Part shown: positions 18,142 through 46,259 of the stretch, in pieces
Position numbering within the stretch: position 1 is the first letter of the stretch
Layout of the letters: every line of letters starts with the position of its first letter
Source of the DNA: Daedaleopsis sinensis
Taxonomy: Eukaryota; Basidiomycota; Agaricomycetes; Polyporales; Polyporaceae
Direction of reading: 5' to 3'
DNA length: 64,000 nucleotides
Assembly: GCA_033807695.1 (NCBI GenBank)
Contig: CM066304.1
Span: 992,001 to 1,056,000, forward strand
Notes under the pieces: model-generated
What the model was told of the DNA's origin: nothing
What the model saw: the letters and a program-made list of their open reading frames with translations, nothing else
Databases searched by the model: none
Position numbers and translations under genes: made by a program

Positions 18142-19930
18142 CTACGCAAGCTCAGCACGGCTAGGAGCATCCACGTCGTGTTCCCTATCACGATCATAAT
18201 GCTCGATGAAGTCAACTTCAACACTTTGATCCAAGCTAGGTATCCCGACGGACGTGAAGGCAACCGACTCTGAGTGCAGCGTATTCTCCGAGGTGGTGCC
18301 TTGTAGCTGGGGAACCTTTTGGAGATGGAGGATAAACCGATTCATGAGCACTGCTGTGCATCTGCGGGAACCCATGTCAATTCCTATGACTATGGTGGTA
18401 GTCGAGTCTTCTTACGGCTCCAGGAAGGTTGTGAAGTAGCTCCCTCCAACCTCAGCAGTACCAAAACTCTGTGACGAACGTTGTGTTAACTGAGGAATGG
18501 GCACTGCTTGGCACAATATGTTAGGCACTCACGTCCTGGAGGGTAAGTATGAGATGGAGCGTGTTGAAGATGGAAAGGACACTGCGGACGATTATTTCGT
18601 TGAATGACCTGCGAGTCTCTCGGACATCATAGAACAAGTCACAACGCACATGAAGTACATAGAGCCTGGGGGTACACAGATCGGCGTGAGATTCAAGGTA
18701 GTTTGGCACCCGATAGAGAAAACCACTTCACACACCATCTCGTATCAGCACGTCCAGCAGTGAACGAGGTTCGACAATGTGCGACAACACATTATCTCTC
18801 CCAGTACTCCACAACTTGAATGTGATGCCGATTACGATCACGTCAGCCAGAATCAGGCTTCCTCTTGAGATGATCGTGCCTGTGAACATCGTGACAATAT
18901 GTCAGAGACAATGCTGAACGTTCAGCCTTATTCTGCATTCGATTATACAGTACCGCTGCAGAACTTCATTAGTTATATATTCATATAGCTTGGCTTGATC
19001 CTGCACAATGAAGTTCCGGACGTACCTCAAATATTCGATCCGGGTGAGGGGGTGCTGCATAGTCTGCACACAGCCATCACCTGGTACAATCATACCCCCA
19101 CGGTCTTCAATCACAAAATCGATGAACTGCCAGTGTGCTCGTCGTCAGCGATTTCTCTTCGCTGCGGCCTGACGATCCCGGATACGCACCACATTGACAC
19201 CCACGGGGGCCAGGGAAAGAAAGAGTACAAGGGCAGTCCACATTCGAGATCGGCTTAGTGCATTTACACGGAGTGCGGAGAATGCTACGAAAAGTATTGG
19301 GTTAATTCAGTATATCAGTAGACGGTATCGCGGTGAGACTTTTGACATGGAAAACTGACCTGCCCAAGGAATATACTGTATGAGCAGCATAACGTCCAGT
19401 ACTAGATTTGTTGTTGCACAGCTATAGCGGGCATCAGCGTAAATGTGAAGTCGGACTACTACGGAAACAAACCTCTAAAGGACACAGCAATCTTTAGAAG
19501 TAAGTTCTGTTCGTACGGATACATTGACAACCGTCATCATGGGTGGACATACGTACAGTGTCAGTGAATATGGGGAGATAGAGGGCCACCTCAATGACAC
19601 TCTTGGTGAGGGGTATATACTTGTTGAGTAAGAACAGGATGGATGCACCCGTGATCCTGCGCCTCCAGAAATACTCTACTTCACTCCCTAGAAGGAGTAT
19701 AGATTCATATATGACGATGACTACAAGCGTCCATGAACAACTGAGTTGAGATCGCGCTCAATTAGGCACACCTGCTGCTGCGATTACACAACAGTTGGTG
19801 ACCATTCTGCCGAAATTATATTATTGAAGTCAGCTTCTGGTACGTCTAGAGAGCGAAGATGCATTACTCACTCGCCATCCAAGTCAGCAATCAAGTCAGC
19901 AAGACTAGCATCGGAGATGGACTCAGACAT
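18142..19930 (-). CDS. DUF6533-type seven-helix membrane protein,paralog 1
   Basis: I read 13 exons with consistent phases and no internal stop. The DUF6533 core is in exon 3: VIYESILLLGSEVEYFWRRR, then a helix ILFLLNKYIPL and PIFTDT. Next come SC...IPWA, the helix AFSALRVNAL...LSLAPVGVNV, a loop with GDGCVQ, TIISRGSLILADVIVIGITF, RDG, LSIFNTLHLIL, YFTTFLEP, and a C-terminal tail starting CTAVLMNRFILHLQ. This is the basidiomycete receptor-like family annotated as DUF6533; ligand and partners are unknown, with plasma membrane location inferred from the helices. Two exons are only 2 nt: AG at 19473-19474 and CG at 18954-18955. Without them the frame breaks; with them the protein aligns with five other copies in this window. 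It looks intact. Confidence 0.82.
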
Positions 19931-20137
19931 CCTGGAGTATGTCAAGCAAGCTCAGTAGAAGAGTGGGATTCGATGCTGGAGGGTTGCCACACCCCGCTCT
20001 GTATTTATCCCGCTCACCACCATCGGCGCCCCCAGATGCTTCCAGAGTGACTTGTTCGATGAGGGATGTTCTTGCAGATTGTCGTCTTGGTAGTACGACG
20101 CCAGCAGCCTCACCTGAGTCTCATCCAACGGAGACCG

Positions 20138-20268
20138 CAACTTATCAGTCCCACATTGTGGTCTCTGCGCTGTGATATTGATGTCCGCGTGTCGGGGCGA
20201 GCTGCATCAGCGCATGGTCAATGGATAGAAATCTCTAAATGATATCACCATGATGTTGTCTGAACATT
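20138..20268 (+). repeat. Direct repeat, copy 1 (copy 2 at 21053-21190)
   Basis: Both copies share the order TATCAGTCCCACATTGTGGT, GATGTC[CT]GCGTGT, ATGGTCAATGGATAG and GATATCACCATG, with small indels. Copy 2 ends about 50 bp upstream of the duplicated Cys-rich gene fragment, so this repeat may be part of the same duplication history. Confidence 0.8.
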
Positions 20269-20501
20269 GGTGCTTTGAACATTCGGGAGCAGTTTCCTTT
20301 GATTGTGGCTTCGATGGTTGCGCGATGCGACGATAGACCGAGCCCATGACATGGATACTTCGCACCATTTGTGTTGTGAGCTACAGAAGAGCTAGAAAGA
20401 GTGGTCTGTATACCGCCGCTGCTAATGATGTGCAAGTCGGACCGTTCCGACGTTGAGGTTAACATGGCGCGCGTGAAGTGTCGTTTTAAGCGGAGCCAAA
20501 T

Positions 20502-20683
20502 TGTCGGAAAACCCCGGTGAACCCTATGAGATAGAAGAAACATTATAGCCCTTTTAAGGCCCTTATAAAAATTCTTGTAGGTCACAAGAATGCCCTACAA
20601 GCCCTTATAAGGGTCTTATAAGGGTCTTAGAAGGGCCATAATGTTTCTTGTTTCCTAACAAGTGTCACCGGAGTTTTCCGACA
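20502..20683. mobile_element. Short foldback/MITE-like element
   Basis: The ends are inverted repeats beginning TGTCGGAAAAC[CT]CCGGTGA; inner arms pair GAAACATTATAGCCC with GGGCCATAATGTTTC and continue into AT-rich arms with CCTTATAA steps, so almost the whole 182 bp folds back. Similar blocks AAGCGGAG and AAGCGGGG lie just outside each end and may be remnants of a duplicated target. No coding capacity. Confidence 0.7.
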
Positions 20684-21238
20684 TAATTAAAGCGGGGTTT
20701 AACTTTACTATCGTGATCACTCTGCTGTGATAGTGTATTTACTAAAGACCGCTTCACGTTCGACCTGACAACCATAATGTGCAATATTGTGTCTCATGGC
20801 CACGAGCTATTTGATTACAAGGTCGGCTCATCATTGTGTCTTTTTCTTACAAGATGCCTGATTGTCGATGATGTTCGTCTCTGCCTCTAACTGAGCCGCC
20901 CACAATGCAGCTCCGACAGCATTCGTGAAGCTGAGCAACAGCCCGACGAGCGGTATGCAGTTGAACAACAGCGTCGCCATCCCGAACCTGGATGCAATCA
21001 AGTCAGTTGAGCTCCGGGCCTACCACGTTTGCACCATCAAGATACAGTACGATTATCAGTCCCACATTGTGGTCTGTGGCATGTGCCACACGGCCGTGAT
21101 ACTGATGTCTGCGTGTTGGGCCTCGCGAGTGCATCGCCGTATGGTCAATGGATAGGAATCTCTAATTGATATCACCATGTTGTTCTCCAGCTCCAATATG
21201 GTCGGGCATCGTATCCTGTTGTTACTACTTGTGGATGG

Positions 21239-21880
21239 AACCTTGTGGGACACGGGGCGTCTGCATGGACCCCGCTGGCAGTCGTACCCCACTGGCAGCG
21301 CCAGTCAAGATGGCATCATGACAAACAGCCTTGGCTGGATTGAGCGTAATCGCCGCCGGTGAGCTGCTCACGCTGTCGATACATCAAGAGGCACCGGCTG
21401 CAACGCGCCAGTGAGATTCGAGAGTATCATTATGAACTTGAAGAACAGATGGGGTATGTCACCTGAGACTTCTCATGGACCGTCCGCGTTCGCAGAGAGT
21501 GCTCACAGAATCTTCACTGTTTCAGCTTGCGAAGATCGCTTGCAGCGTTGCATGCGGCGGCGGCAGACCGATATGCAAGGACAAGTTGTACGACCAATGA
21601 CGTCACTTCAAGCCCTCGTATGCGTTATTTGGTCTTGTTAGGATCAGAAGGTTTCGCTCGCTGCTTTTGGAGAATGGCTGCTGCAATCAACTTCGCCCAA
21701 CCACAGTACTTCTACCAAGTGTCGTCCCCCATGGAACGGTCCAATCGGCTCACGACCCGCTGTAAAAAATATTACCGCATCGCGCGAACTGTGCTATCAT
21801 CGCACAACAGTGCTTCACAATCGCAACATACAGTACGTCTCACTGCGGCTTGATAATGTTCGGATATGCGTCGGTCGAGC
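21239..21880 (+). pseudogene. Duplicated 3' fragment of the Cys-rich membrane protein gene
   Basis: Same orientation as 17383-18052. Exon 3 sequence is present but interrupted by an insertion, the exon 4 stretch coding the membrane span is missing, and the last exon has a 1-base deletion relative to the source (frame moves from ...RYAKDKLYDQ to ...RYARTSCTTN). With no 5' half and these lesions it cannot make the protein. Confidence 0.85.
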
Positions 21881-22511
21881 TACTATTCTTATCCGTATGT
21901 CTAACGACAACCGCTTACTTGACATGAACCATGTGCCTACAGACATGACATTGAAGAAGTGCAAGCTATCTTTAGCTGAATGTGTGCAATGCCTTCTGGC
22001 CCAGCAAGGCCGACGCAACTTACCAAACAGGTGAAAAACGAGACTCGTCGATTCATCCGTTCCTATTTCACCGCACCCGCCGCTGGGGCCCCGCATCGCC
22101 TGCAGAGACGACTTCGGTACACGTTCGGGATGTGCGGTTCTACGTCGGCAGCTGGTTTATCGCCCACCCCACTTCAAAGAGTCCGCATCCTTCGGCCTCG
22201 CTTCCTGCATCGTCATCTGCCGCAAGGTGATAGGCTGGCTTCGTCCTGGGGGTCTCAACACACTCGAGGCGAGGCGTGTGCGAGGTATGACGTTCCCCGG
22301 ATCGCTCGACGCTCCGTGCTCGGAGAAAGCTGACTCGGACAGTGCAGGTGCAACGGCTCGGCTAAATAGGCTCAAGTTAGGACTCGACGGCGACGTTGCC
22401 GGCAATGGGCGGCAGCGATGGTCTTCTGCCGACATTTCCGTAATGTGCGTATGTTGTAGTTTCTCGAGCAAAGACGTCCACATGCCCGTTCTCGGAGATG
22501 GAGGTTTGGGG
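21881..22511. other. Intergenic, upstream of the LPMO gene
   Basis: No coding exon recognised. It should contain the upstream control region of the AA9 gene. Confidence 0.5.
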
Positions 22512-22517
22512 TATATA
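22512..22517 (+). promoter_or_regulatory. TATA box of the AA9 LPMO gene
   Basis: TATATA centred about 58 bp upstream of the ATG at 22573, a normal TATA-to-start distance for a secreted-enzyme gene in filamentous fungi. Confidence 0.6.
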
Positions 22518-22572
22518 ACATGGGCATGTTCGAGCCAGGACTGCATCGCTCCAGATCCCCAGGTACTTCACA

Positions 22573-23581
22573 ATGTTCAAGGCCATCGTCGCTCTCTCGG
22601 CCCTCGTCGCCACCGCAGCTGCGCACTGTAAGCCCCGATTCCACCCACCACTCCATCTCACCCACTGACCACCTACACCGCACTCCCACAGACACCTTCC
22701 CCTCCCTCGTCGTCGGGGGCGCGACCACCCCCGCGTGGGTGAACGTCCGGAAGACGAACAACTTCAACACGCAGTCACCCGTGACGGACGTGACGTCGCC
22801 CGACTTCCGCTGCTACGACTCGCAGACGAACCCGACCGCGCAGACCGCGACCGTCTCCGCGGGCTCGCAGCTCGGCATCATGTCCGACGGCACGATCTAC
22901 CACCCGGGCGTCGTGAACGTGTACATGGCGAAGGCGCCCGGGGACGTCTCGAGCTTCGCGGGCGACGGGCCCGTGTGGTTCAAGGTGTACGAGATCTCCG
23001 CGGTCACGAACGGGGGGCAGTCGATCTCGTTCCCCGCCGAGGGCGTCTCGGGGGTGACGTTCACGCTCCCGAAGAACCTGCCCTCGGGCCAGTACCTCGT
23101 CCGCATGGAGGCCATCGCGCTGCACGTCGCGCAGAGCTACGGCGGCGCGCAGTTCTACGTGAGTGCCCTGAGTGCCCGTGATTGTGCGCAGTCGCACTTA
23201 CCGCCGCGCGCGGACGGTAGATCTCTTGCGGCCAAGTCAACGTCGTCAACGGCGGCAGCGGTACCCCCGGTCCCCTCGTCGCCATCCCCGGCGTGTACAC
23301 CGGCTACGTGCGTTGTCCCTCTCGCGCTCAAGCTGCATTCAGATGACTGACATGGACTGTCACGATGCACAGGAGCCCGGCATCCTCATCAACATCAACG
23401 TGAGTGCATTCGCTTGCTATGCCAGTCCACGACTGACGACTCTGTGTCGATGTGCAGTACCCCGTCCCCAAGAACTACACCCAGCCTGGCCCCGTGAGTA
23501 CAGCTCGATGTGTCTGTGTCGCCGCTGAACGCACCGCTAATACCGCTTCCGTGCTCTGCTCAGGCCGTCTGGTCCGGGTGA
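22573..23581 (+). CDS. AA9 lytic polysaccharide monooxygenase
   Basis: Six exons (22573-22627, 22692-23158, 23221-23307, 23373-23399, 23458-23493, 23564-23581), 690 nt, 229 residues, phases consistent. It is a secreted copper enzyme that oxidatively cleaves cellulose or related glucans. The signal peptide (MFKAIVALSALVATAAA) ends exactly before His18, which becomes the N-terminal His brace residue. The second copper histidine is in TIYHPGVVNVYMAKAPGDV, and the axial tyrosine in the conserved block EAIALHVAQSYGGAQFYISC. The cysteine pair FRCYD / YISCG would form the core disulfide. There is no C-terminal cellulose-binding module; the protein ends after PGPAVWSG. A TATA box lies upstream. The next gene is convergent. 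Confidence 0.96.
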
Positions 23582-23963
23582 AAAGTCTCGCTGTACTAGT
23601 CGTTCTGTTTTGTCGCGTGTACCGAGCGAGTGTCGGAATCAATCTCAACAGTATTCACCCTTACATCGAACACGCGTGAATACTACCGACCCTCTGTTCA
23701 GAATGGCTGAACGGCGCATACTGCACAAGGCCAGCGAGGAGCTAGAAGTCAGCGGCATGCATGTCCTGGACGATACTAGTCGAAGCAAGCCTCCCCTGGT
23801 CAGTCGATCAAGAGGCATCATGGGGAACCCTCTGGTATCTCCCGCACAACCACAGCGCAAGCGAAATCTGGTGACAACCCGATGACATTCCAACCCTAGC
23901 ATAGCGATACTATGTGCGATGATACATCCCAGAGACGACCAAACCCAGAAGACAGCGCGCGAA
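23582..23963. other. Intergenic region between convergent genes
   Basis: 382 bp between the LPMO stop and the stop of the small secreted protein. No feature recognised. Confidence 0.55.
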
Positions 23964-24553
23964 TCACGCAGTACCGTAAGTGACGAGCGTGTCTCCCTTG
24001 GCAGCACCCCCCGCAAAGCGCGCGGTGAAGGGGATGTTCTGCCCGCACACGGCGAACGCGGCCTTGATGCCCTCTGCAGAAGCGTCCGTCAGCACCTCGC
24101 TCCACCCCGCACGAGAGAGAAAGGCGGTAGTCGGTGAAAGGGGTGGGGATAGAGAGAGAAAATGAGAGAGAGAGAAGAGAACGGCACGCACGCTCCCAAC
24201 GACCCTTGGAGATGTTGAGCGTATCGCCCGCGACGACGGGCTTGATCGTGAACTTGACGTTCCCGGACTGGCCGACGGTCGAGGTCGGCGCGCCCTGGCA
24301 CTTCTGGATCGTGCCCGCGATGCCGCCGCAGATCTGCAGCAGCGCGACGTTTGACGTGTGGAAGTCCAAAGCCCTGCGGATACGGATCCACGCGTGTCAG
24401 TGTGCGTCCGCGCGCGTGGGTTCTGGACAGAGGGACGTACTTGGTGCTTGTGCACTTGACGTCGGTGACCTGTTCCTGGCGGACCTCGAGCGGCGCGGCG
24501 AACGCGCAGACGAAGAGCATCGCGAGAGCGTAGAAGATGGTCGCGAACTGCAT
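23964..24553 (-). CDS. Small secreted protein, function unknown
   Basis: Three exons (24441-24553, 24192-24373, 23964-24073), 405 nt, 134 residues, phases consistent. Signal peptide about residues 1-20 (MQFATIFYALAMLFVCAFAA), followed by a short possible propeptide PLEVRQ. The mature part has four cysteines (DVKCTST, LLQICGG, IQKCQGA, FAVCGQN) and a beta-rich look (NVKFTIKPVVAGDTLNIS), ending KGDTLVTYGTA. Secreted and small, as are many basidiomycete effector-like or wall proteins, but I do not recognise the family and do not infer a role. A TATA-like GATAAAAGG lies near 24795 on this strand. Confidence 0.8.
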
Positions 24554-25376
24554 CTTGCCTATGATGACGATGTGGTTGGTAGTGTGTGGGTGATGAGGAC
24601 GGGCGGGCGACACCGGAAAAAGTATGCAAGGAGGGGCAAGGGAGGGATTCCAAAGACCGTCGCAGACGGCAAAAGCAGCAACTCAATCGAAGAGAAAGAG
24701 AAAGAAGGTTAGCACTGCTTGAGCGAAGGCTGAACCGGTCAGAGGAATGAGGGTCGAGGAGACTTTGTGGGATGCACCCACGCGCACTCGGCCTTTTATC
24801 CATGCGCGCGCGAGCTCTCGAGGAATTCCAGAAGGGTACCTGATCGCTTGTCGCTAGGGTGATGCACCTTGCGGCTTGCCGCTATCCGCCGGCTGCCTCC
24901 GCGCCGGCTATGCTAGGACACACCGAGTTTCTGGACGTTGGACTTAAGGTTGAAGGTGTCTGTGTGGTCTATGTCCAATGAGGACATCTATGCAAGTGCT
25001 TATGAAACCCCTCTGAAAACGTTGCCTACCACACGGACCAGTTCATCGCGATACTGACATTGCGACTTTCATGGTATGGCCGTGGGACCTGACCTGGATT
25101 TGACATCAGATGTGAAAACGGCTCTTCCGGCGTCCGCCCGGCACGCGGAGGGCAAGGTTCGGTTGCAACGGAAGCTTCATTGGGCATATGTAGATCACCT
25201 GCGTGCTACAGCATTGGGCTACCGGTCAGTCGAGAATCTAGCACACAACATCAGTAGGCATTGAACGAGCACAAGGCAGAGCATAAGGCAGAAGAGACCA
25301 CCAGGGAGCAACTACTCACCGGTCACCCTCAAGCACGCTGTCGGTCGTTCCAAGAGGCGAACCAGGCGGGCCCGGC
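24554..25376. other. Intergenic region
   Basis: Holds the upstream region of the small secreted protein gene and the 3' flank of the methyltransferase gene. No gene seen. Confidence 0.5.
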
Positions 25377-27066: not shown

Positions 27067-27389
27067 GTAGCTCTGAGGGGGAGGTAGATGTTTGCCCTGG
27101 GTCTGCCAAGGAGAAGGAGGAGGTCGAGGAGGTCGAGGAGGCCTCTGCCAATATTGGCTAGCTGGTGCGCCCAAATCCGGCGAGCGTCATTGGCTTTCGA
27201 TCCTAATATACGCAAACAACGCCTAGTACTTAGTACTTACTAATAGTAGTACTAAGGCTACTAATATGATTATGGTACCAGTTACCAGTACTAGTGACCA
27301 GTGTACATAATATACAGAGTACAGTACACCTGAGTCAAACTGAAGGCCCGATTCCGAAGTGGCACAATACTTGTATCCGGCCACCACTA
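27067..27389. other. Intergenic region
   Basis: 323 bp with AT-rich runs of GTACTA/TAGTAC type repeats around 27225-27300. No gene. Confidence 0.5.
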
Positions 27390-29062
27390 CTACTCTTGAA
27401 TCCGAGCCTCCTCTATGATGCAATCGTGGTCACGCACATCATGGTCACGATGCGCAATAGACCCGACAACCCTGACGAAACTCGGAATCCCAACAGACAT
27501 CGAGCCAGACGACTCTAGATGCAAAGGATGTTCCGTCTCTATCCGTAAGGTTCGGCTTCTCGATTCTTGGAGGTGGAGAAGGAAGCGGTTGATGAGGACC
27601 GATGTACATCTGCGGAAACACCTCAATCTCAGGAGGCGGTTGACTGTACCATAACGTATGTGCTCTTACGGTTCTGCGAAGAGGCTGACGTAGCTCTGAG
27701 AGCCATCGCCAAAGATCTAGGTTTCATTATGTCAGTTTGGCAATCCAGTATCGTAAACAGAATTCGAAGCCTACCGAGAGTAAGGTGAATATTAGCTGAA
27801 GCACGTTCAGCGTAAGCAGGACGCTGTGGGGCTGTTTCTTCAATATGTGTATGGCAGCGGAGCTAGGAAAGACGCACATGAAGTATATAGTGCCTAGACA
27901 TGTGCGAATGATCAAAAGCTTGTTTAGCAGCGAGTGATATAAACGACTCTCACATACCATCTCGTATCAACAGGTCTTGCAATGAGCGTGGCTTCAGAAT
28001 ATGTGATAGATAGTTGAATTTCGTGGGAATACTCCACAGAGTGATGCCGATGAGGAAGATATCAGCGAGGATGAGGCTTCCTCTCGAGATGATGACGTCT
28101 TGAAACGCGCCATGTTAGAGATGTTGTGACACAAGTATATGCAGAACTATAGCCGGCGAATGATGCGTACCTCTGCAGAAGCATCAGTACCCTGTCTGAA
28201 CATGCAAGATTGTCAGAGCGCGCCTCGCAAAATCGTGGATAGTGATCGTGATCGTCTCTGAACAGCCAAAAACGGGGTCGTTGATGCCGCCGATCGCGTC
28301 CAGAAAGAAGTGACTCTGATACTATCAGAATCGTGTCCGCCTCATGTATACCCGAACGCACCAAATTGACACCCAGAGGAACGACCGACAGTGCGAATAC
28401 GAGGGCTCCCCACGCCCAAGATCTACTGAGTGAATACGCGCGGAGCGCGGAGAATGCTGCGAGTGCAGAATTGGTCGCATCGGTAAATGAATCTCATGAC
28501 TGTCATGGAGGAGTCTACGAGGCTCACCTGCCCATGGAAAAAGCTGTGATATCTGTACAGCAGACAGAGCTCGCTGTGTCGATGCGCAGCTTCAGGTGCC
28601 ATAAGCATGAGCAGCCCGGTCTCGAGACCTAGGAGAACGTACCTCTGCGATAAGCGAGGATTGGGATTGTCAGTGATACGACTACGCACAGTATCGTGCA
28701 GGACTGACTTACGTTGTCCGTGAATATCGGTAAATATATAGCCAAGCAAAGGAGGTAGTTGGAGAGGGAGAGATATTTGCTCAGAAAGAATAGGATGGAT
28801 GCACCCGTGAGCTTCCGTCTCCAGAAGTATTCCACCTCGTCCCCGAGGATAATGACGGACTCGTATATGTAGAATACTGTGCATGATCTTGAGTTTCAGC
28901 CACAAGTCGATATGTCGCATCACTATGCGCACCTGCTGCTGCGAGCGTACAACATGTACCGACGAATCTCCAACTCTATATGAGCTCGACTATGACAAGA
29001 GCCAGTCGGTGGTGAGTAAATAGTACTCACAGGCTCTCTTGGTCAGCGATAGGATCTGACAT
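27390..29062 (-). CDS. DUF6533-type seven-helix membrane protein, paralog 2
   Basis: Same 13-exon plan as its neighbours. Start MSDPIADQESL; DUF6533 core VFYIYESVIILGDEVEYFWR and SILFFLSKYLSLSNYL, PIFTDN; then SCASTQRALS...FPWA, AFSALRAYSLSRSW...VVPLGVNLV, GINDPVFGC, VIISRGSLILADIFLIGITL, RDG, VLLTLNVLQLIFTL, YVSLFAEP, and the tail CTSVLINRFLLHLQ. The 2-nt exons are AG at 28643-28644 and AG at 28171-28172. The intron before the second one appears to start with GC (28223), the only odd donor I saw in this family. It seems intact but is a little less certain than the others. Role as for paralog 1: receptor-like, unknown ligand. Confidence 0.75.
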
Positions 29063-30953: not shown

Positions 30954-32477
30954 TCAAGAGATTTGGGGTGTGACGAAGCTCGGGATATCATTCGAAGAGC
31001 CGACCGAAAGATGGAGAGGGTCATCTGAGGCAACCCTCAGTGTACCACTTGCAGACTCTTGTAGATGTAGCATGAAGCGGGAGACGAGAATTGCGGTGCA
31101 GCTATGTTTCCGAGGTATGTCCCTGTTAACCGAGTAGAAAAGCAATGGAAGGGTGTTCACGTACGGTCCCGTGAATATACTGACGTAGCTCCCGAGTCCG
31201 TTTCCGAAGACCTGTGAAGGGATGTAAGTACTCGGGATGTAGTCAGGACAGTGCTGGACTCACAGAGGTTAAACTGAAGGTGAGATGCATCACGTTCAGA
31301 ATGACTAGTATGCTGAAGCGAGGATCACGGATCAACTTGAGCCGGTGCATAGGTATACTGTACATATAAAGCTTACCTGAAGAACACAGTACCGTCTCGA
31401 AGAAGGGTGCTTTGAATTGAGGATGGCTGGGATAGAATGTCTTGCTTCGGGATAGTGCATAGAGTGATTGCAATGAGGAGCACATCGGCCACTATCAGAC
31501 ATCCCCTGGAGATGGTGACAACTGCCGGCAGTATTAATGGTGTACTCAGAAACCCAGGTGCACGTGAACGACATACGCCTACACAAAGGGTGTCAGTGCA
31601 CGAGCGTTACAAAGATGCCTTGGTTTACTGACTCTACAACCTCATCCACGGTAAACTCAGGATCGGTTGTGCATCCAAACACGGGATCGACTTCACCATT
31701 GACCCCAATGGTGAAGTACTGGGTCTGGCGCACAAACGGGTTAGCTGCGGGCGTTGGAGCTCAAACGAACACACTTACGATGTTGATTCCAAATGGCACC
31801 ACGGATAACAGGAACACGACTATCGACAATAGCCTAGCTCTCCTCAGTGCGAAGGCACGAAGAGATGAGAAGGCTGTACCCGGATCGATGAGCCAACAAA
31901 CGAGCGAGAGAGTGTCATGAACGCACCGGCCCAAGGCACAAATTGCAGACTCTGAAAGACGAGAAGTGCATTCTGAATGTTGGAGCAACTACACGCATAT
32001 AGTTAGGCCCCATCCCTGCGGTATCACTAGATGTAGATGACATACCTCTGAGCGATGGTTAATAGACGGTCATAGCTTCTGTCAAAGACATATCGATACT
32101 CACTTTGTTTGTTAATACTGGTAGGAATGTTGTTATACTCAAGAACGCCACAGCAAGAGCCAGATACTTATTCAATAGATACAGCACGGAAGAGCCGGTG
32201 AGTTTGCCCTTCCAGAAGTATTTTAGCTCGCTGCCGGATGAGATGACCCATTCGTAAACCATGAGCACTGTGAGCTACCTCTTCAGATACGGCATTTCAC
32301 GTGACGGAGGCGAAGAATGTCCAAACCTGAGGCAGCAATCGTACAGCAAGTGTCGACAGACCTGAGAAAATGGCCGGAGTGAGCTTCTCCACTGCGAGGT
32401 ATAAGGCTTAAGGCTTACAGGCTATCGTAGGCTGCAATGAGCTCAGCGGCGGCATCTGAGTCTGGTGAGAGTGACAT
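30954..32477 (-). CDS. DUF6533-type seven-helix membrane protein, paralog 3
   Basis: Thirteen exons, no stops. Start MSLSPDSDAAAELIAAYDSL; core VLMVYEWVISSGSELKYFWK, SVLYLLNKYLAL, PVLTNK; SCSNIQNALLV...FVPWA; AFSSLRAFALRRARLLS...VVPFGINIV; the loop QYFTIGVNGEVDPVFGCTT; LVTISRGCLIVADVLLIAIT; RDG; ILVILNVMHLTFSL; YVSIFTGP; tail CTAILVSRFMLHLQESASGT. The 2-nt exons are AG at 32046-32047 and GC at 31577-31578. The GC joins GA and TT into Glu-Leu; skipping it destroys the frame of ISRGC. Function unknown, membrane receptor-like. Confidence 0.8.
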
Positions 32478-33136: not shown

Positions 33137-34806
33137 TCAGCTACCGAGTTCTTTCGACGCAGTATCAGGGAAAACGAAGCCGTCTACACCGGATGGGCCT
33201 GCGAGGCCTCTTGCAAAGCTCGGTCTTCCATTCTCATCAGAGCTTGAGAAGTGGAGCACATGATCCGAGCCGAGCTTCATGGGGCGCTGGCTGAGTTCTT
33301 GCAAGTCGAGTAGGAAGCGCGCCACGAGCATCGATGTCACTCTGCATGGTCATCGTCAGTCCTGTACACACCCCTCTGTAGCAGTCGCAGTCGCACGAGC
33401 AGCGACTGCGCATGACTGACGACGTACGGCTCTGTGAACACGGTGATGTAGCTGCCGCCCATGTCTCCGAAGATCTGCGAGATAGTGTGAGCGCCGTCGC
33501 AATCCATAGCGTCCCGGAAGACCCACCGATTTCACAGAGAAAGCAAGGTGGAGGACGTTCATGACAAGCAAGATGCTGGGGGAGCATGAGCACACACGCG
33601 GCGTCCATATGCGAACCACACACATGAAGTAGATGGCACCTATGATGTCAATGGGCACTTCGTCAAACCTGCACTGTGAATGGGGACACAAGAGATAGAC
33701 TAACCGTCTCGCAGCAAGATTCCTTTGAGAGAAAGTCGCTTCGGTAATGACGAGCCGTCCCGCCAAAGGATAGACCATGTTATGATGACGAGCGCGCTGT
33801 CAGCGACGATATTGCCTGTCCGCGATGTCACTACGACTGCAAACGGGATGATTCATGCCGATTTATCGTGAGTTTCCTTGAGGATGTACCACAACGTGGA
33901 CGTACATCTGCTGAACCGGTCAGTGAGCCTGAAATGTAAGCACGGGCGAGAGTACTGACATCAGAGCGAGCTGTGGGGTGACATCATCTAGAGCGAGGCA
34001 CCCGATGCCGGGAATGTTCACCCCAGTCACATTGTAGGCGAAACCACCCTGTGACCCATCCGTCAGCCTGTGTAGGATATGCGGAGAAAGCGAAAGCGAG
34101 CTAACCAGGTTAACTGCGACAGGGATCATAGCAAGACACAGGACCACCACAGTCAAAATCCACGACCGAGTCATTGCGTGGGCTCGCAGTGCCGCGAACG
34201 CTGTGATCATCAAGCCCTTCTCAGTGAGCGGAGGAAGCTTTGGTAACGTGCACGGAGCTCACCAGAACAAGGAACTATGCCCAGTATTTGTAATGCCAAC
34301 AGGGTTCTTGAGAACACGCCGCAACTAATGTCGGCCAAGTCAGTATCAATCCGTTCGATCCCGTGCTAGTAGAAGGACAGACCTCTGTGCAACATCGACT
34401 CCTTGAATGTGAGATATCACAGTCTACGATTGATGATACACACCTCGTCAGAAGGGAAGGTCAAGCCTGTGTATGTCGCCAGGACTAGGAAGCACTTCAC
34501 CAACGCGATATACTTGGTCGCGAAGAATAGTGCCGACGCGCGGCTTAAGCCACGCTTCCAGAAGACGGCCTCTTCACGAGATAGGGTGACGAGAGAGTCG
34601 TATATGAAAAAGACTATAGTTGTGTATTGAACCGAGCGCATGAGAGTAGCATAAGAACTCGGTACCTGAGGCTGCAACCTCGCAGTAGTTACCAATGACA
34701 CTGAGAAGGGATGGTGAGCTCGGCGAAAGAGAGATAAATAGATCACGCACAGGCTGTCAAAGTAAGCTATAGTCGAGGCGATTTTTTGGTCTGCTTCTGT
34801 AGACAT
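33137..34806 (-). CDS. DUF6533-type seven-helix membrane protein, paralog 4
   Basis: The most divergent member of the cluster but with the same exon plan. Start MSTEADQKIASTIAYFDSL; core VFFIYDSLVTLSREEAVFWK, SALFFATKYIALVKCFLVLA; SCGVFSRTLLALQ; AFAALRAHAMTRSW...MIPVAVNLV; loop GFAYNVTGVNIPGIGC; FVVTSRTGNIVADSALVIIT; RDG; LLVMNVLHLAFSVKS; GSYITVFTEP; tail TSMLVARFLLDLQELSQRP. The 2-nt exons are AG at 34383-34384 and AT at 33906-33907. The AT unit lies between CAG and GTACGT and is needed to read LIFVVTSR. Because the paralog is divergent, retention of both micro-exons argues they are real. Confidence 0.78.
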
Positions 34807-36122: not shown

Positions 36123-36455
36123 CTGTCCAAATCATCAGCAACGTCTATCACAAGCCAGGGTACAACAACCCGCTTGCCATTGTGAGTGTTCAGGACCTGG
36201 GACGGGTGGTGGTGGTCGGTGGGAGAGGGCGTGTGCAGTCGGTGCCGGGGTGTGTGCGCACGCGCAAGGCTGGGACGAGCGCCCAGACCCCGCATTGCCG
36301 CAGGCGCCGGCTCGGAGATCCGGCTAGATCCTGAATGGGATCGTGCGCGCGTGATTTCTCCTCCTCCTCTCATCACTAGTGACTAGTCTCAGGCTTCAGC
36401 AATTGCTCAGCATATTACCAAACACATCAGAACGCAAGTAGTTTCGAAGTAGAGA
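36123..36455. other. Intergenic region between divergent genes
   Basis: 333 bp between the TMEM14-like gene and the methyltransferase gene, which point away from each other. It contains GT-rich DNA (36205-36265) and possibly the missing first exon of the TMEM14-like gene. Confidence 0.4.
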
Positions 36456-37551: not shown

Positions 37552-37988
37552 CAGCAGGTCTAGTAGAGCCTGGGGGAGAGCCGACCCAGTCGACAAGCCA
37601 TTCCCTATATAGATTCTGTTCGTAGTAGTATGTACTGATTCCTGGCCAGAATATTGAGTTGTATCAGGCTGTAGCACAGTGATAGACGTTCAAAAAGACT
37701 CGGAGTCAATCGTGACCACTGGCACTTACCTAGACTTACTTGGACGCCCGTGAGATCTTTCCGATATTCTCGGACTTGCACCTTTCACCATCTCCGCCTC
37801 CGCTCCTCTTCGACTGCTCGCCTTTACCTGCAGCTATCTGGCTCTACTTGCTATCTGGCCGCAGGGATATCTCTTATCTACCACGGGGACTCAGCTAACA
37901 CACCCTAAGTAACTGGTGGCAGGAGAAGAGAAGTTGTCATAGTCTGTTTCCGTTCCACTCTGGGTTGGACAAGTTGTTTGGTGTATAG
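37552..37988. other. Intergenic region
   Basis: 437 bp upstream of the CLC gene. No feature recognised. Confidence 0.5.
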
Positions 37989-40900
37989 ATGTGGTAAGAA
38001 TATGATCTTCATATTCTCACTGTCTACTGAACTATTTGTAGGAACAGCTCCAGCTCACATCTTCCATGGTACAAAGGAGAAGCACGCCAAGAAGACCTTC
38101 GGGATGCAGAAACATACGAATTCGTCGACAGCGAGACCGGTCCTCTCCTGTCTTCGCGCTCGCTGGAGAAGCAGGTCGCCTACGACGAGGGCAGCACGAT
38201 AAACTGGCAGCGAGAAGAGGCCGCCGAACGTGAAAGGAAGCGCGTCTTGCGCTCACAGCGCGGACTACATGGCCTCCTCACGCTTGTGTCCGAGTCGGCG
38301 GGGATGTGGCTGGTGATCATCCTAACGGGTGTTGGTATCGGGGTGCTCGGTGCTTGGCTAGACGTGCTCGTCAAATGGTACGTCGTGCTCCTTCTCGACT
38401 TGCCTATGGGTACACATGCTCTCAGCCAGGCTGGCCGACTTGCGGGAAGGAAGGTGCACGTACGGCTTCTTCTACAACCAAGTCGCGTGCTGCAGTGGCC
38501 TTGATCGTGAGTACTTCTTTGTGATAACACATCTCTCTCCGCCGAATGTCGTGCGTTTTGTAGCCGGGGAGATATGCAACGAATGGCAGAGCTGGAGCGC
38601 ATATTTCCACGTCAGCAGTATATTTGGGCAGTCCATCCTGCAAGCTACCATCTACATTGCTCTCGCGGTAAGAGAAACCAACAGAGCTACGTGCGGCGAC
38701 TGGACTCAAACGTCCACTGCTAGATATGCTTCGCTGGAAGCTCGGCTCTCCTGGTCCTGACATACGCTCCATAGTGAGCCGCTCCCACAATGCGACCGAG
38801 ACCTCGTATTAACGCGTGCTCGGCAGTGCATTCCACACAGGAAGTGCGTATTATTTTGATTCCTTGCCCGCTGCTTCTGAATATCGTGCGCAGTTCCAGA
38901 AATCAAGGCTGTGAGTGTCATTCCCGCAGCGAGCAGAATTTCTTCTCACATTACACAGATTCTCAGCGGATACGTGCTAGACGAGTTCCTCGGCCCATGG
39001 GTACTGCTCATCAAGGCCGTCGGTGTCGTGCTCGCCGTCGCTTCGGGACTATCTCTAGGGAAGGAGGGTCCGCTCGTGCACGTTTCGTGCTGCTGGGCGT
39101 CCCTTCTCTCTCGTGTCCTGAAGCATTACCAGCAGAACGAGGGTATGACCACCGTTATACAATGGCTTAGACTACACTCTCAACAATTTGGATGTAGCAC
39201 GTAAACGCAAGCTCCTCGCGGCAGCTGCAGCAGCGGGCGTGTCCGTCGCCTTCGGAAGCCCGTTGGGGGGCGTGCTCTTCGCGCTCGAGGAGCTCGACGC
39301 GTTCTCGAACGATAGCGATGTGATGTGGCGCGGCTTCGTCACCTCGGTCATCGCAGCGGTGTCGTTGCAGTATGTAGACCCGTTCGGAACGTCGAAGCTC
39401 GTGCTGTTCCAGGTATCAGAGTCTGGCTCGGTATGGCGTGCGTTCGAGCTGGTGCGTCTTACGCAAGCTGCCTGGCTCAGGGGGTTGAATCTTACATCTT
39501 TCGATACAGATTCCTTGGGTGTTCCTGTCTGTCACTGGGGTGCGTTCTTTCGTGGGCCATGTGGGCTGTATCGCTAATTGCGGTGATGTTGCTAGGGTCT
39601 ATTAGGGTCCCTGTTGATCAAACTCAATGCGGCCGTGGCCGTGTATAGAAGGCATAGCCTCCTGCACGAGTACCCTATTATTGAGGTAGTCGGCTTCACG
39701 GCCGTCACCGGGGCGGTCAGCTATCTGGTACACCCACATCGTCTCCATCTTCTAGGCCATCTTCATTCTGACTCGTGTTGCAGGTCGTCTTCCTGCGCGT
39801 GCAGTCCTCAGAGCTTGTGGCCAATCTGTTCCAAGAATGCGACGCCACGAAGACTGATTATCACGGACTTTGCAAGTGCGTTTGCATCCCGTATTCACAG
39901 GAGGGGCGATGATCATTAATGCATGTGGCAGCCCGACTGCGATATGGGCGAACGTGTTCCTGCTCATCCTGACCGCCGTGGTCAAGATCGGGTTCACGTC
40001 GTGGACGTTCGGCATGATGGTACACCCTCTGAATCCGAGCGAATGCCCCGCCCAGTTCACTGACGGCAGCATCTAGGTGCCTGCGGGCATGTTCTTGCCC
40101 ACGATCGCTATCGGTGCTTCGCTCGGCCGCGCGGTTGGATTGATCACGTACGTGAGCGAAGCTACTGTGTGGTATTCTAACTGACCACAATCATGCGCCT
40201 TCTATTGGATCGCAGCCAAGGGCTGCACCGAGCATATCCAGATGCGTGGGTATTTTCATCATGCCCACCGGATCCTACCGTGCGGTGTGTATCGCCAGGT
40301 TTCTACGCTGTTGTGGGTGCATCTGCCATGCTCGGCGGAGTCACACGAATGACGAGTGAGCGGACCCCTTGCTGATCTCACCCGACGCGCGTGCTCATTC
40401 CATCCGAACGCGTCTGCAGTCTCGATTGTCGTCATAGTCTTCGAGGTGCGCTCACCCGCTCGTTCGCGATCCTGTCCGTAGTACTGACCGTTTCGTCGCA
40501 GCTCACCGGGGCGCTCTCGCACGTCCTGCCGATCATGATCTCCGTCATGGTCTCCAAGTGGGTCGCGGACGCGTTCGGCAAGGACGGCATATACTCGGTC
40601 TGGATTGCGATGCGCCAGTATCCGTGGCTGCCCGCGCGCGAGTTCCGCGACCAGGGCCAGACGGCGGTGGCGGTAATGAAGCCCGCGGGCGACCTCGTTG
40701 TCGTCCACGACTCGGGCGAGGACGGGGAGGGCTGCACAGTGAACGAGCTCGAGGAGCTCGTGAAGACGCACGCGTTCCGGGGCTTCCCGGTCGTCAGGGG
40801 AGAGATGCTGTTGGGGATCGTCATGAGGGACAAGCTGCGAGCGTGTCTCGGTGCGTCTCATGGCGCACGAAACCGGCGGACACTTACCAAGTAGGAGATA

Positions 40901-41259
40901 CAGATGATCTGCTCGCGGAAGACCGTTCGAGGGAGCGGCGGTGCACGTTCCTCCCGCCGAGCCGAGCCGATCGGGACGACAGCAGCATGGTGAACCTGTC
41001 GCACCTACTCGAGGAAGCCACGCTGCAACTGCGGAAGGATGTGCCGCTCGAGCTGGTCGTGGATATGTTCCGACAGCTGGTGAGCGTCGCTACGAACTTG
41101 TTCATCCCCTGGGGTCTTCTGACGGCGAGTCTGCGACAGAACCTACGGCATATACTGTTCTCGCAAGAAGGGAAGCTGATGGGCATGGTGACGAAGACGG
41201 ACATCGTGTGGCTGCTCACCGCGCAGTCATCGCATGCCGGTGCCCTTGCCGCTCGTTGA
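37989..41259 (+). CDS. CLC family voltage-gated chloride channel / antiporter
   Basis: Nineteen exons with all phases consistent: 2,268 nt, 755 residues. Exon ends were checked through 38042-38377, 38430-38506, 38564-38667, 38724-38773, 38827-38843, 38894-38910, 38959-39142, 39198-39451 and onward to 41140-41259. CLC hallmarks: SESAGMWLVIILTG (helix B), YAPYAFHTGIPEIKAILSGY in place of the usual GSGIPE, LSLGKEGPLVHV with the gating glutamate, AFGSPLGGVLFALEE, FGMMVPAGMFLPTIAIGA, and GFYAVVGASAMLGGVTRMT. The C-terminus has two CBS-like segments (FRGFPVVRGEMLLGIVMRDK; HILFSQEGKLMGMVTKTDIV). Fungal members (yeast Gef1-like) acidify or balance charge in Golgi, vacuole or endosome. Oddities: the only in-frame ATG I find is in a 5-nt coding exon (37989-37993), so the start is tentative; two consecutive exons are 17 nt each. 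Confidence 0.9.
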
Positions 41260-42143
41260 CATACATCCTGCCACGCCATTATCCCGCTACTGACTACGTT
41301 CACCCTTACCCGCCCGTATGGCCGTATTATCGCATAATGCCTCCTACGACTCACCTCTGCAGCAGCCAAGGACGTCCGAGCTTGTGACAGATGTGGAAGC
41401 GGATGTTTGTCACTGTTATGATTAAGGAAGGTGATCCCTTCGACCCCCATATATCATGGCTTGTGACATATCACCTGTCTTCCGCATCTAGTTCCTGTTC
41501 ATCGATAGGTTGGAACACTCATCGTCTGCGCCCCTTCATGGTGAAGATGTCTCATCACGGAGGATCGCATGAACATGCGCGTCTCGCTTAGAGTTCATGC
41601 TGGGGTGGACCGCAGCTTACCGACCGTCAAACAGCCAGACTGCCTTCTATCTGTTCGCGAGCGTTGGATTCTATGCTCTTGGAGGAGCTCACGACTGCTA
41701 CCGCACGAAGAGATGCTTTGCGACCGCGCGCCATCAGAAGTTACCCGGTCATCTCAAAGGCTTAAACAAGCGCACTCCTCTATGCACGAGAGTCAGTGCC
41801 AATACTCATCTGCTTGACTATTTTAGACATAGCCTTCGCCTAGTCACTCACAGCAAACGAAGACCTCAACATGCTGCGGCTTTAACAGAAACACCCTCAT
41901 CACTCCGGACAGAGGACCTTACGGAGATGATAGAACAGTTTCTGAGAAACCATCCGCACGCGTTGACGGTGTCCTGCCTGAGAGCGATTCGATCCGAGAG
42001 AACATTGTTTGACCTACTGGCAGTGTGCAGTGTGCCTCGTGGAACTGATAGACTCTTTCGCTGAGCAGGATGAAAAGGAGCAGGGCATAATGGCCCGTGC
42101 GCATACACACACAGGCATCCTCCTCTTTCAACCTAGCACGTCC
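41260..42143. other. Intergenic region
   Basis: 884 bp with no recognisable coding exons. It holds the 3' flank of CLC and the promoter side of paralog 5. Confidence 0.45.
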
Positions 42144-43829
42144 ATGTCGTCTTCCGATGATCCTGGCTTTGACGATCTCATTGCTGAGTACAACGTTATG
42201 TGAGTACTACATGCTACCTCTATCGGCGCGTAGAAACTGACTTACACCATTCTGGAGATACGTCAATTCTATCTGCAGTGCCGCAGCAGCAGGTGAGCTA
42301 AGTAGTGCGTAAATCTCAGAGACCACAGCGAATGCTCATAACCCTTCATAGCGTTTTTCATATACGAATCTTCGATCAACTTCGGGAGTGAGGTGGAATA
42401 TTTCTGGAAACGCAGGATTACTGGCGCATCCATCCTATTCTTATTGAGCAAGTATATCTCCCTTACCTATAACCTCCTGTCATCCGTCATCTATCTGCCA
42501 ATATTCTCCGACAACGTACGCAGATTCTCTTGGCAGTACCGATGTGCGTAATAACTTACCGATGACCGCCCTACTATGTAGAGGTTCGGCTCCGTACTCC
42601 TGCGACCGCATCTTTGACGCTAACGGCACGTATAGCTGTGTGGCGACACAACAAGCAATGGCTGCTATACAACTATCGCAGTATGTCCCCTGGGCAGGTC
42701 AGCGTGTTCCGTCGCGTCCAGGCCCATTCTGCTGAATGGACACCGATCTCCTGACAGCATTTTCCGCACTCCGTGTATATGCACTCACTGGTCATTCTCG
42801 GATATGGATGGCTATCGTGCTCGTTCTATCGTTGGCCCCTATCGGCGTGAACACGGTACGTCAGTATTTCGAGTTGTGAATGCAACACTGACGAAGGCAC
42901 ACCAGGCCGTGTTCGTCCTGAATGGGCTCGCCGGCGTGAATGATCCCGTTTATGGTTGTTTGGCAACTATGTTCCCCATCGACCCGAGCGAATCTGCGAG
43001 GTACATATTCTATTTGTGTTGTTTCTCAGCCTGAATAGCAGTGTGACTAGTGGTGTTTTACAGAGGTACGGTGTTAGACACTGAACCCTCAACTTCACAA
43101 TCTCTGATATAGTATGATCAATTTAACCTCAGGTGTGATCATCTCAAGAGGATGCCTTATTATCTCCGACGTCATCCTGATCGGTACAACACTGTGGAGC
43201 ATCCGGATCAGTCGGAAAGATGTTGTCCTACGGCACGTTATCAAACCTTTCTCACTGCAAGGTGTACTGATGCGAGATGGTATGTATGTCGACTCTCTTA
43301 CACTACTCAGCACCAATTAACAAGCTCACCGTTTGCACATCTACAGGCACCATCTACTTCATGTGCGTGTTGTGTAGAGCCGCGGGTGATCCCGGTTATC
43401 ATTAACACAAGAACCTGAATTGCACAGAGTCCTGCTGGCACTCAATGTGCTCCACCTCACATTGAGCTTGAAAGAGGTGAGTCTTGAACTTGGCGTAAAC
43501 AGCGCTCGTCTCTGAGCCACTGGTGATGCATTTCTTTGCGAACAGGTTTTTAGCGACGGTTTTGAGAGCTACATCGTCCGCTTCACGGAGCCGTAAGATG
43601 ACTCTCTCCAATATCTCTCTCTGTATCGCTAACATCTTGCCGCAGATGTACAGCGGTCCTCGTCAACCGTTTCCTCATACACCTTCAGGAAATAAGTAGC
43701 AGAACTCTACGGGTAGAGACGGAGCACACCCTGCATTTGAGGTCGCGGGACGGCTCTATGCCTAGCTTCATTCAGGTTAGGGTGGTTGGCTCTATCGCTC
43801 ACCGTGATTATCGAGAGACGGAGTACTAG
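42144..43829 (+). CDS. DUF6533-type seven-helix membrane protein, paralog 5
   Basis: Thirteen exons, no stops. Start MSSSDDPGFDDLIAEYNV; core FFIYESSINFGSEVEYFWKR, SILFLLSKYISLTYNL, PIFSDN; SCVATQQAMAAIQ...YVPWA; AFSALRVYALTGHSRIWMAI, APIGVNT; loop GLAGVNDPVYGCLAT; GVIISRGCLIISDVILIGTT; RDG; TIYFI; VLLALNVLHLTLSLKE; YIVRFTEP; tail CTAVLVNRFLIHLQ and VGSIAHRDYRETEY. The 2-nt exons are AG at 42582-42583 (introns 66 and 52 nt) and AG at 43064-43065 (introns 63 and 67 nt). Closest in sequence to paralog 6, which follows in the same orientation, so the two probably arose by tandem duplication. Confidence 0.82.
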
Positions 43830-44517
43830 AGGCCACTAACGTCTGTGGAGTAATTTACTTGCATAACTATCAGTACTAGTACAACTCCTCACCAGCATCT
43901 GAACTAGTACCCGGTGTCCAGTTTTCCACTCCATCTCTCGAATGTACAATCATGTGACACTACTACGATACATCCAGGGAGAATATACTGAATTTGGCGC
44001 ATACCAATTCAAAGTACTGACCGGGGGAGACCCGTCCTCTCTCTCATAATGGTGCGCAAACCCCTCCCACTGCCGCCCAGACTGGCATCCGATCGTCACT
44101 GTTATGTGCCCAAATTAGAAATCGTATCGCCGGCAACTCCCGTCTCAACTCACAAGATGCGACCACGTTCGAGCCTCGGCTCTGATGCCACTCATCTTCT
44201 GAATCTTTATGAGACCCGCACTGGTGGCCTAGGTTTATCAGATCCATCATCGACCCTGGTGGGTCTCAAGCCACATCTCGCTACTCATGTCAATCGCCGT
44301 GGCCCCAATATCATCCCCGTAGTAACCATCCGCCGCGCGCGATCGATAGGATCCTTTTGTTGGCGGTCTATAACTCCGAGGACATCTCTCCGAGGCCAGC
44401 TACGATCTCTTCTTCTGTTTGGAAGCATTCGAGCTCACATGGTTGCCTTTTTTGAGTAAAGTAGATAAGGAGCGGCCGCGCCCACTGTGGCAACACGAAG
44501 CAGAACTCAACGTGCCA
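43830..44517. other. Intergenic region
   Basis: 688 bp between the tandem paralogs 5 and 6. No gene recognised. Confidence 0.45.
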
Positions 44518-46259
44518 ATGTCCTCCCTCCCGGATCCTAGCGAAGTCATCGAGCTGGTTGCTGTCTATGATAGCGTGTGAGTAGAATACATACTAGCTTT
44601 ACTGACTTCGCGTTTGGAGCTAACCACCATAATCGTGGAGATGGATTGGGAGCTGTTTTTCGCTCGCAGCATCAGGTGGGTTCACTTGAAGTACGCGATG
44701 TTGAAAGCCCATATCTGAGTTGCGTCCATAGTGTTCTTCATATACGAGTCTACTATCATCTTGGGGAGTGAGGTGAAATATGTTTGGAGACGCAAAATCA
44801 CGGGCGCATCCATCCTGTTCTTACTCAGCAAGTATCTCTCTCTCACCCAAAGTCTCATCAATGTGGCTACCGTACTACCCATTTTCACCGACAACGTACG
44901 TATATGCTCTCACTCCTGTGTGCTTAGAAGTACTGACCATCGCTAATTCCTGCAGAGGTTCGTTCTTTTAGTTTTAAGACATGCCTTGACTGACGGTTGA
45001 TGCTGATGATACGCCCCATAGCTGCTCAACAACGCAGCGAGTAGATAGTGCTGTACAGTTTCTGCAGTACCTTCCCTGGGCAAGTAAGCTCCAGTCTCTT
45101 CTCAACTTCTACAGATGTCCCGTTTTGACCCAATATCCTTGTAGCATTCTCCGCACTCCGTGTCTATGCATTGAGTCGATCTCGGATATGGATGACCATC
45201 GTATTCATTTTATCGTTGAGTCCTGTCGGCGTCAATGCGGTACGTTCATATCTCTAAACGACACGAATGCAACATTGACGATGACACACTAGGCCTCGTT
45301 CCTCATGCATGGAGTTGTGGGCGTGAACGATCCCATTGATGGTTGTTTGGAGACCACCAACTCTGACCCAAGTCTAAGCGAAACTGTTAGGTAGGGCTGG
45401 GGGATAGTTTTGCAGCCTGACCGCTGGATGACCAGCGATATTTTACAGAGGTACTGTGTCGCACACTGAGCCCTATTGGAGACCGTCACTTACTGTCACT
45501 ATGTCTTCAGGCTTAATTATCTCAAGAGGATGCCTTATCATCGCTGAAGTAATCCTGATCTGTAGAACGTTGTGGACTATCCGAATTACTAGCAACGGTG
45601 CCCTACGGAACATCCTCAAACCTTCCTCACTGCAAGGCGTACTTATACGGGATGGTGCGTCGACTCCGCTTACGCCATCCATTAGCAGGCAACCTCACTG
45701 TCTGCACATACACAGGCACCATCTACTTTATGTCACGGTACGTCTCGGGGATCTCAGGTGTGTTCACTAACTCAGTACACTATATTGCACAGAGTCCTGC
45801 TAGTATTGAATGTGCTCCATCTCGCATTTAGTCTGAATGAAGTGAGTCTGAAGTGACTAGTGTAGTCAGTTCACGTATCTCAGTTGACTTGGTTTATTTC
45901 TTTGCGCACAGGTCCTCGACGATGATTCAAGGAGCTATATCGCCTACTTCACGGAGCCGTAAGAGCCTGTATCTATAAGATCTATCTCTTAGCTGCTAAC
46001 AACGTATTGTTACAGGTTCACAGCAGTTCTAGTCAATCGTTTCATTCTGCACCTCCAAAGGGCAGGCAGTAGAACACTACGGGTAGATACGGAGGACCCC
46101 CTGCATCTAGTAGGGTCGCGCGAGTCTACACCCAGCTTCGTAGATCGCAGAGTCATCGGCTCCATCGGGCACCGCGATCACCATGTTCACAGCGACAGTG
46201 ATGTGATGGGGAAGCTGAAGCTGAGGCCGAGTGATTTGGAGGGTAGTGGGGACTGGTGA
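44518..46259 (+). CDS. DUF6533-type seven-helix membrane protein, paralog 6
   Basis: Thirteen exons, no stops. Start MSSLPDPSEVIELVAVYDSV; core VFFIYESTIILGSEVKYVWR, SILFLLSKYLSLTQSL, PIFTDN; SCSTTQRVDSAVQ...YLPWA; TFSALRVYALSRSRIWMTIV, LSPVGVNA; loop GVVGVNDPIDGC; GLIISRGCLIIAEVILICRT; RDG; VLLVLNVLHLAFSLNE; YIAYFTEP; tail FTAVLVNRFILHLQ, ending DLEGSGDW. The 2-nt exons are AG at 44956-44957 (introns 60 and 64 nt) and AG at 45449-45450 (introns 58 and 60 nt). The conserved C-terminal GSIGHRDHH motif recurs in paralogs 2 and 5 (GSIAHRD). Membrane receptor-like; ligand unknown. Confidence 0.82.

Follow-up and report, generated by a model that had tools for sequence, protein, structure and literature searches.

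How do six paralogous genes lying together in one stretch of the Daedaleopsis sinensis genome keep their reading frame where the exons on either side of an interval leave two bases to be supplied? The stretch, hereafter the window, comprises 64 kb (positions 992001-1056000 of contig CM066304.1) of a 51.6 Mb genome in 24 contigs, and its six paralogs are membrane-protein genes of the Pfam family PF20151 (DUF6533), a domain that one paper describes as a region of integral membrane proteins specific to basidiomycetes (PMC10949477). All six score above the curated cut-off (an exon of paralog 4, for example, reaches 32.5 bits against a cut-off of 24.1), and each DUF6533 gene is divided by about a dozen short introns. 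An earlier note on this DNA had proposed that every one of the six contains two exons of 2 nucleotides (nt), one at an upstream site (J1) and one between the loop exon and the transmembrane exon that begins before the residues IISRG (J2). Based on comparison of position, phase, splice sites, recurrence in the family and J1 paralogs without one of the flanking introns, we conclude that J1 and J2 are very probably real dinucleotide exons of DUF6533 genes.

At J2 the loop exon ends in phase 2, and the transmembrane exon needs one base ahead of its first two. Dinucleotides between an acceptor and a donor were present exactly where the note had placed them in all six genes (hyphens mark the splice sites): on the minus strand, CG at 18954-18955 in paralog 1 (CTGCAG-CG-GTACTG), AG at 28171-28172 in paralog 2 (CTGCAG-AG-GTACGC), GC at 31577-31578 in paralog 3 (GTGTAG-GC-GTATGT) and AT at 33906-33907 in paralog 4 (CAGCAG-AT-GTACGT); and on the plus strand, AG at 43064-43065 in paralog 5 (TTACAG-AG-GTACGG) and AG at 45449-45450 in paralog 6 (TTACAG-AG-GTACTG). 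The lengths claimed for the flanking introns were likewise reproduced (70/74, 51/72, 54/55, 52/69, 63/67 and 58/60 nt in paralogs 1-6), as was the claim that the exon has constant length and phase (phase 2, then phase 1). Of the splice-site claim, acceptor and donor flanks stood in all six genes, but a canonical GT is absent from the upstream donor of paralog 2, which is GC (GAG-GCGCGC). The first J2 base would close the last codon of the loop exon and the second would start a codon finished by the transmembrane exon; in paralog 5 this reads GCG AG-A G-GT GTG ATC, or A-R-G-V-I-I-S-R-G. Without the two bases, the transmembrane helix would be read in the wrong frame. At 2 nt, both J1 and J2 fall among micro-exons (internal exons of <=15 nt between an acceptor and a donor), and both are needed for the reading frame.

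To recover the gene structures we used spliced-profile alignment, which allows introns at any phase and exons of any length and contains no micro-exon rule. A profile including paralog 5 found both 2-nt exons in all six window genes, in agreement with the claim of two per gene. To lessen circularity we then adopted a profile of 24 other-species proteins only, although the alignment underlying it still included paralog 5; it placed both exons at the same coordinates in all six genes, and the predicted Ser-Gly, Glu-Leu, Ile-Phe and Arg-Gly codons were present in the resulting models. The J1 exon is AG in each, at 19473-19474, 28643-28644, 32046-32047 and 34383-34384 in paralogs 1-4 (minus strand) and at 42582-42583 and 44956-44957 in paralogs 5 and 6 (plus strand). 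Five of the six window-gene models encode proteins that begin with methionine.

The exons recur throughout the family. The genome holds 143 DUF6533 matches, from which 116 loci were analysed (the 6 of the window and 110 others). With the other-species profile, size and phase were conserved among the paralogs of this one genome, a 2-nt exon being called at J1 in 87/116 loci and at J2 in 83/116; J1 and J2 labels were assigned automatically (within 5 model columns), and two of the 83 J2 calls (L024 and L046) have other phases. Among the 85 of 116 loci scoring over 270 bits, to which the shuffles, two-intron statistics, splice-site figures and skipping test below refer, the exon was called at J1 in 72 and at J2 in 75, which would put the number of dinucleotide exons genome-wide on the order of 150. 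The bases at J2 vary, as the earlier note had maintained from six genes (AT 34, AC 9, AG 8, GT 6, CG 4, GC 4, TT 4, CT 4, AA 1 and CC 1 in 75 calls), while length and phase are kept, so the dinucleotide does not simply extend a splice motif. J1 is mostly AG (27/72) or GG (25/72). The J2 dinucleotide follows CAG or TAG in 72 of 75 loci and AAG in 3, and precedes a GT donor in 57 and a GC donor in 18; splice-site contexts vary between genes except within close clades.

Given that the bare AG-NN-GT motif is common by chance, with 258 and 267 copies on the two strands of the 64 kb, its presence in one gene proves little, and we discarded the motif alone as evidence. The whole set of dinucleotide exons is nevertheless beyond chance. 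When interval interiors were shuffled with dinucleotides kept, at loci with a 2-nt call (random seeds were not fixed), the real score was matched in 30/1080 shuffles at J1 and 45/1125 at J2; for J2 of window paralogs 1-6, it was reached in 1, 0, 0, 0, 0 and 0 of 15 shuffles each. The interval between the flanking exons has a median of 120 nt at J1 and 122 nt at J2, compared with 61 nt for an ordinary intron (301 other introns at loci over 400 bits), and it splits into introns with medians of 59/57 nt (J1) and 60/59 nt (J2), each half being of ordinary length. We also scored conservation over eleven columns in one hand-picked clade and found 0.94 (J1, 16 rows) and 0.97 (J2, 17 rows) for acceptor-NN-donor, as against 0.77 and 0.81 for the intron interiors, where 0/87 and 0/83 windows reached the micro-exon score; this score ignores the protein frame, though its rows were picked from alignment calls.

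Paralogs with a single intron at J1 offer a further view of the site. Seven loci have the phase-0 intron only, followed by an exon of 64 nt, that is 2+62 (L085, L093, L108, L071, L042, L011 and L046), and six have the phase-2 intron only, followed by a 62-nt exon (L064, L097, L096, L055, L070 and L075). Because both states occur, J1 appears to consist of two separate introns 2 nt apart, and the best-scored examples are L085 (337 bits) and L064 (402 bits). Loci were left out of these J1 counts where a single "intron" of 132, 95 or 110 nt may hide a micro-exon (L051, L078 and L106) or where the downstream exon had another length (162 and 53 nt in L008 and L101). At J2, L018 and L103 have the phase-1 intron only, and their loop exons measure 94 and 97 nt; excluded were L006, L086 and L088, which look like missed 2-nt exons, L025, whose loop exon is 97 or 75 nt depending on the profile, and L023, L053, L094 and L108, which have other exon lengths. 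On a FastTree tree of 111 models, rooted by midpoint only and with 35/107 forks weak, loci with a 2-nt exon are found to either side of the root, with single-intron loci dispersed among them; taken together, the three states at J1 require 8 changes. Such a distribution agrees with an ancient dinucleotide exon followed by losses, and the exons would then be older than most paralogs. It is likely that the family as a whole relies on a pair of obligatory 2-nt exons in each gene, and that their length and phase, though not their bases, have persisted from a time before the paralogs diverged.

We also compared the gene models of other fungi, where proteins best matching the family come mostly from polypores. 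These models carry indels at J1 in 46/55 and at J2 in 36/55 (33/55 at the second J2 boundary), as opposed to 2/52, 1/55 and 2/56 at three ordinary junctions and 6/56 at the end of the 16-nt exon; in our reading, automatic annotation of other species probably stumbles at the same small exons. In pairs at least 42% identical, spacing was exact in 26/44 at J1, 24/37 at J2 and 97/100 at ordinary junctions, counts that are approximate since junctions were sorted by exon length and at least one pair is not J1 (L052, exon 172 followed by 2 nt). In two proteins, P0001 and P0007, spacing at the protein level is exact across J1 and J2 alike. The "lgn" proteins P0025 and P0042, which come from short contigs and are possibly assembled transcripts, were dropped as RNA evidence because identity with the closest paralog is just 39% and 35%.

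Several observations weigh against reading J1 and J2 as dinucleotide exons, or limit what each locus contributes. The evidence from any one gene is modest: when the J2 acceptor was masked, the loss was 10.2, 11.4, 18.5, 1.2, 7.2 and 8.0 bits in paralogs 1-6, and the runner-up in paralog 5 was a different 2-nt exon. The 24 profile proteins had been fetched with a paralog-5 query hand-spliced to include the micro-exon residues. Shuffles still produced a 2-nt exon in 76/1080 cases at J1 (7%) and 124/1125 at J2 (11%), and setting these rates against the 116 loci is approximate because only loci with a prior 2-nt call were shuffled. Besides L085 and L064, the other 11 of the 13 single-intron J1 loci have models of only 171-251 bits; among ten J2 loci labelled as having a single phase-1 intron, the loop exon has the expected length in only 2, and none of the 116 loci is a clear paralog with the phase-2 intron alone at J2. 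The indel fraction of the other-species models across 155 other windows had a median of 0.02 but a mean of 0.18 and a maximum of 1.0, and part of the indels may be natural change in loop length.

The most direct alternative is that one intron without any micro-exon joins the loop exon to the transmembrane exon, with a displaced donor or acceptor keeping the sequence in frame. The frequency of AG-NN-GT lends this some room, and in paralog 2 it may hold: a GC donor two bases downstream would give a single intron and the protein ARHVIISRG, the reading of P0006, an 84%-identical Daedaleopsis nitida model, where the 2-nt exon gives ARDVIISRG. Across the set we consider it improbable, given that, once the J2 acceptor was masked, the next-best structures scored 7-18 bits lower in five of six genes, and only paralogs 2 and 3 turned to a single intron, the others choosing a small exon of 40, 5, 2 or 15 nt; that the intervals are twice the length of an ordinary intron; and that conservation within the clade is highest at the micro-exon. 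Tandem acceptors could instead make many of the genes carry a true micro-exon of another length that equals 2 modulo 3 (5, 8 or 11 nt). Paralog 4 illustrates this with CAGCAG-AT-GT, where a 5-nt exon comes within 1.2 bits of the 2-nt exon, and a few loci were modelled with 5, 8 or 11 nt; set against the 2-nt call in 83/91 two-intron loci at J2 and 87/96 at J1, such lengths are very unlikely to be general. As single cases, paralogs 2 and 4 are thus unsettled, the one for its GC donor with a single-intron alternative and the other for its tandem acceptor, which permits 2 or 5 nt.

A third possibility accepts the dinucleotide exon but treats it as a regulated switch, skipping of which would shift the frame and silence the gene. 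Omission does lead to a stop in 72/72 loci at J1 and 68/75 at J2 (after a median of 40.5 and 45.5 codons), and a regulated fungal micro-exon has been reported in Trichoderma Xlr2 (PMC11121469); however, the retention of two exons per gene in most paralogs would suit constitutive use better, so we regard a switch as unlikely and the dinucleotide exons as probably constitutive. Finally, were the genes decaying copies, the frame argument would be void. The GC donor of paralog 2 and the many tandem copies might suggest decay, but all six window genes have open multi-exon models with nearly fixed exon sizes, and the models of the 110 other loci contain no stop (the method penalises stops), leaving this explanation scarcely credible.

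If J1 and J2 are dinucleotide exons, how they would be spliced can be sketched from their surroundings. CTRAY is a branch motif, and a CTRAY-like sequence lies shortly upstream of the J2 dinucleotide in paralogs 1-4. Under intron definition, the spliceosome would pair the splice sites across each intron, which measures about 55-65 nt. The two introns would be removed one after the other because two bases should leave too little room for factors to occupy the 3' and the 5' splice site simultaneously. As the exon offers U1 just two bases, the splice sites would be set mainly from the intron side, leaving the identity of the dinucleotide to be shaped by the protein rather than by a splice signal. 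In line with this, the donor after J2 matches the +3 to +6 consensus at a mean of 3.37 positions (n=63) for exons ending in a base other than G and 2.33 (n=12) for those ending in G, or 3.13 (n=45) and 2.33 (n=12) for GT donors only, compared with 3.14 (n=183) and 3.07 (n=230) at other introns; we take this only as a hint of intron-side compensation, since related genes are not independent. Published work describes short introns as favouring intron definition and suggests that factors may interfere sterically across a micro-exon (PMC8378409). A side feature of the same donors is that GC follows the J2 dinucleotide in 18/75 paralogs but occurs in 8/413 other family introns, and 17 of the 18 read GCAAGT after AT or AC; these loci belong mostly to one clade (L026, L032, L035, L038, L044, L047, L049, L057, L062, L063, L072, L074, L076, L077, L081, L087, L095 and L100).

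The arrangement resembles several known systems without matching any of them. In recursive splicing through zero-length exons, introns are removed sequentially at neighbouring 3' and 5' splice sites and no bases remain. Sequential removal would be shared, but DUF6533 genes keep two bases, and a zero-length site, with AG directly followed by GT, is not what the window holds: two bases intervene in all six genes. Fungal stwintrons also comprise two short introns needing ordered removal (PMC9024468), yet in a [D1,2] stwintron, as described there, the donor that is split is part of the external intron and leaves with it, whereas removing the two bases would break the DUF6533 frame. We therefore rejected a [D1,2] stwintron, as the frame needs both bases and CG, AG, GC, AT, AG and AG rebuild no split donor. 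Closest is Fusarium CYP621A, likewise a fungal ultra-small exon that rebuilds a protein motif and was missed by gene models, and inferred from phase and a 139-nt interval more than twice the normal intron (PMC12940212). According to that account its exon is 1 nt, with an identical candidate in all genes, one site per gene and confirmation by RNA reads, whereas the DUF6533 exons are 2 nt with variable bases, were called at two sites per gene in most of the paralogs analysed from a large family, and are deduced from sequence. Arabidopsis APC11 similarly has a constitutive single-nucleotide exon far below the size suited to exon definition, although in a plant, in one gene, and demonstrated in vivo with GFP fusion constructs (PMC4674806). 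Plant micro-exons of 1-15 nt share family-conserved size and phase, are often misannotated and sometimes occur twice in a gene (PMC8831610); the main text of that paper contains neither "2-nt" nor "fungi". Nuclear 1-nt exons have thus been published in two gene families (PMC12940212, PMC4674806), while among the matches listed in openly licensed literature there is no paired, family-wide 2-nt exon in fungi, and the two papers naming DUF6533 do so once each, in contexts unrelated to exons. Single-nucleotide exons are already known; paired, family-wide 2-nt exons would be new.

Exon definition copes poorly with very small exons, and 2 nt is close to the smallest exon that can be spliced. If our interpretation is true, it is routine for a fungal spliceosome to process a 3' and a 5' splice site separated by only two bases, and signals on the intron side make up for the missing exon. 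Dozens of genes with two dinucleotide exons, together with the one-intron paralogs, would then serve as natural replicates bearing on the order of intron removal and on U1 contact at the lower size limit. Exons of 2 nt are easily overlooked by genome annotation, and this may explain why, in this expanded family of basidiomycete genes, models so frequently break at two fixed points, where protein databases would contain wrong sequences.

The remaining architecture of the window paralogs is nearly uniform, with exons of about 56-59, 35, 164, 2, 62, 95, 89-101, 2, 132-147, 16, 49 and 47 nt plus a last part, some differing by a few codons. The loop exons adjoining J2 occupy 19026-19126 (101 nt, ending in phase 2), 28224-28315 (92 nt), 31633-31724 (92 nt) and 33960-34048 (89 nt) in paralogs 1-4 on the minus strand, and 42906-43000 (95 nt) and 45293-45390 (98 nt) in paralogs 5 and 6 on the plus strand; the corresponding transmembrane exons occupy 18736-18879 (144 nt), 27958-28098 (141 nt), 31377-31521 (145 nt), 33705-33836 (132 nt), 43133-43279 (147 nt) and 45511-45654 (144 nt). 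The 16-nt exon after the transmembrane exon is kept in most paralogs but is absent in paralog 3 and is 22 nt in paralog 6, and the 62-, 95- and 49-nt exons are nearly constant in size across window paralogs and other loci.

A few loci depart from the usual form of the micro-exons. Four related loci (L037, L048, L066 and L098) have an 8-nt exon at J1 and an upstream exon of 152-155 nt in place of the usual 161 (6-9 nt shorter), as though the first intron had shifted towards the 5' end. In three divergent paralogs (L041, L097 and L101), the J2 micro-exon was modelled as 8 or 11 nt, with the same phase as 2 nt. Elsewhere in the genome, L018 is 91% identical over 250 residues to a Daedaleopsis nitida protein other than the one matching paralog 2, and L089 and L090 (contig C11, ~1.767 and 1.776 Mb) have identical predicted proteins, probably reflecting a recent duplication.

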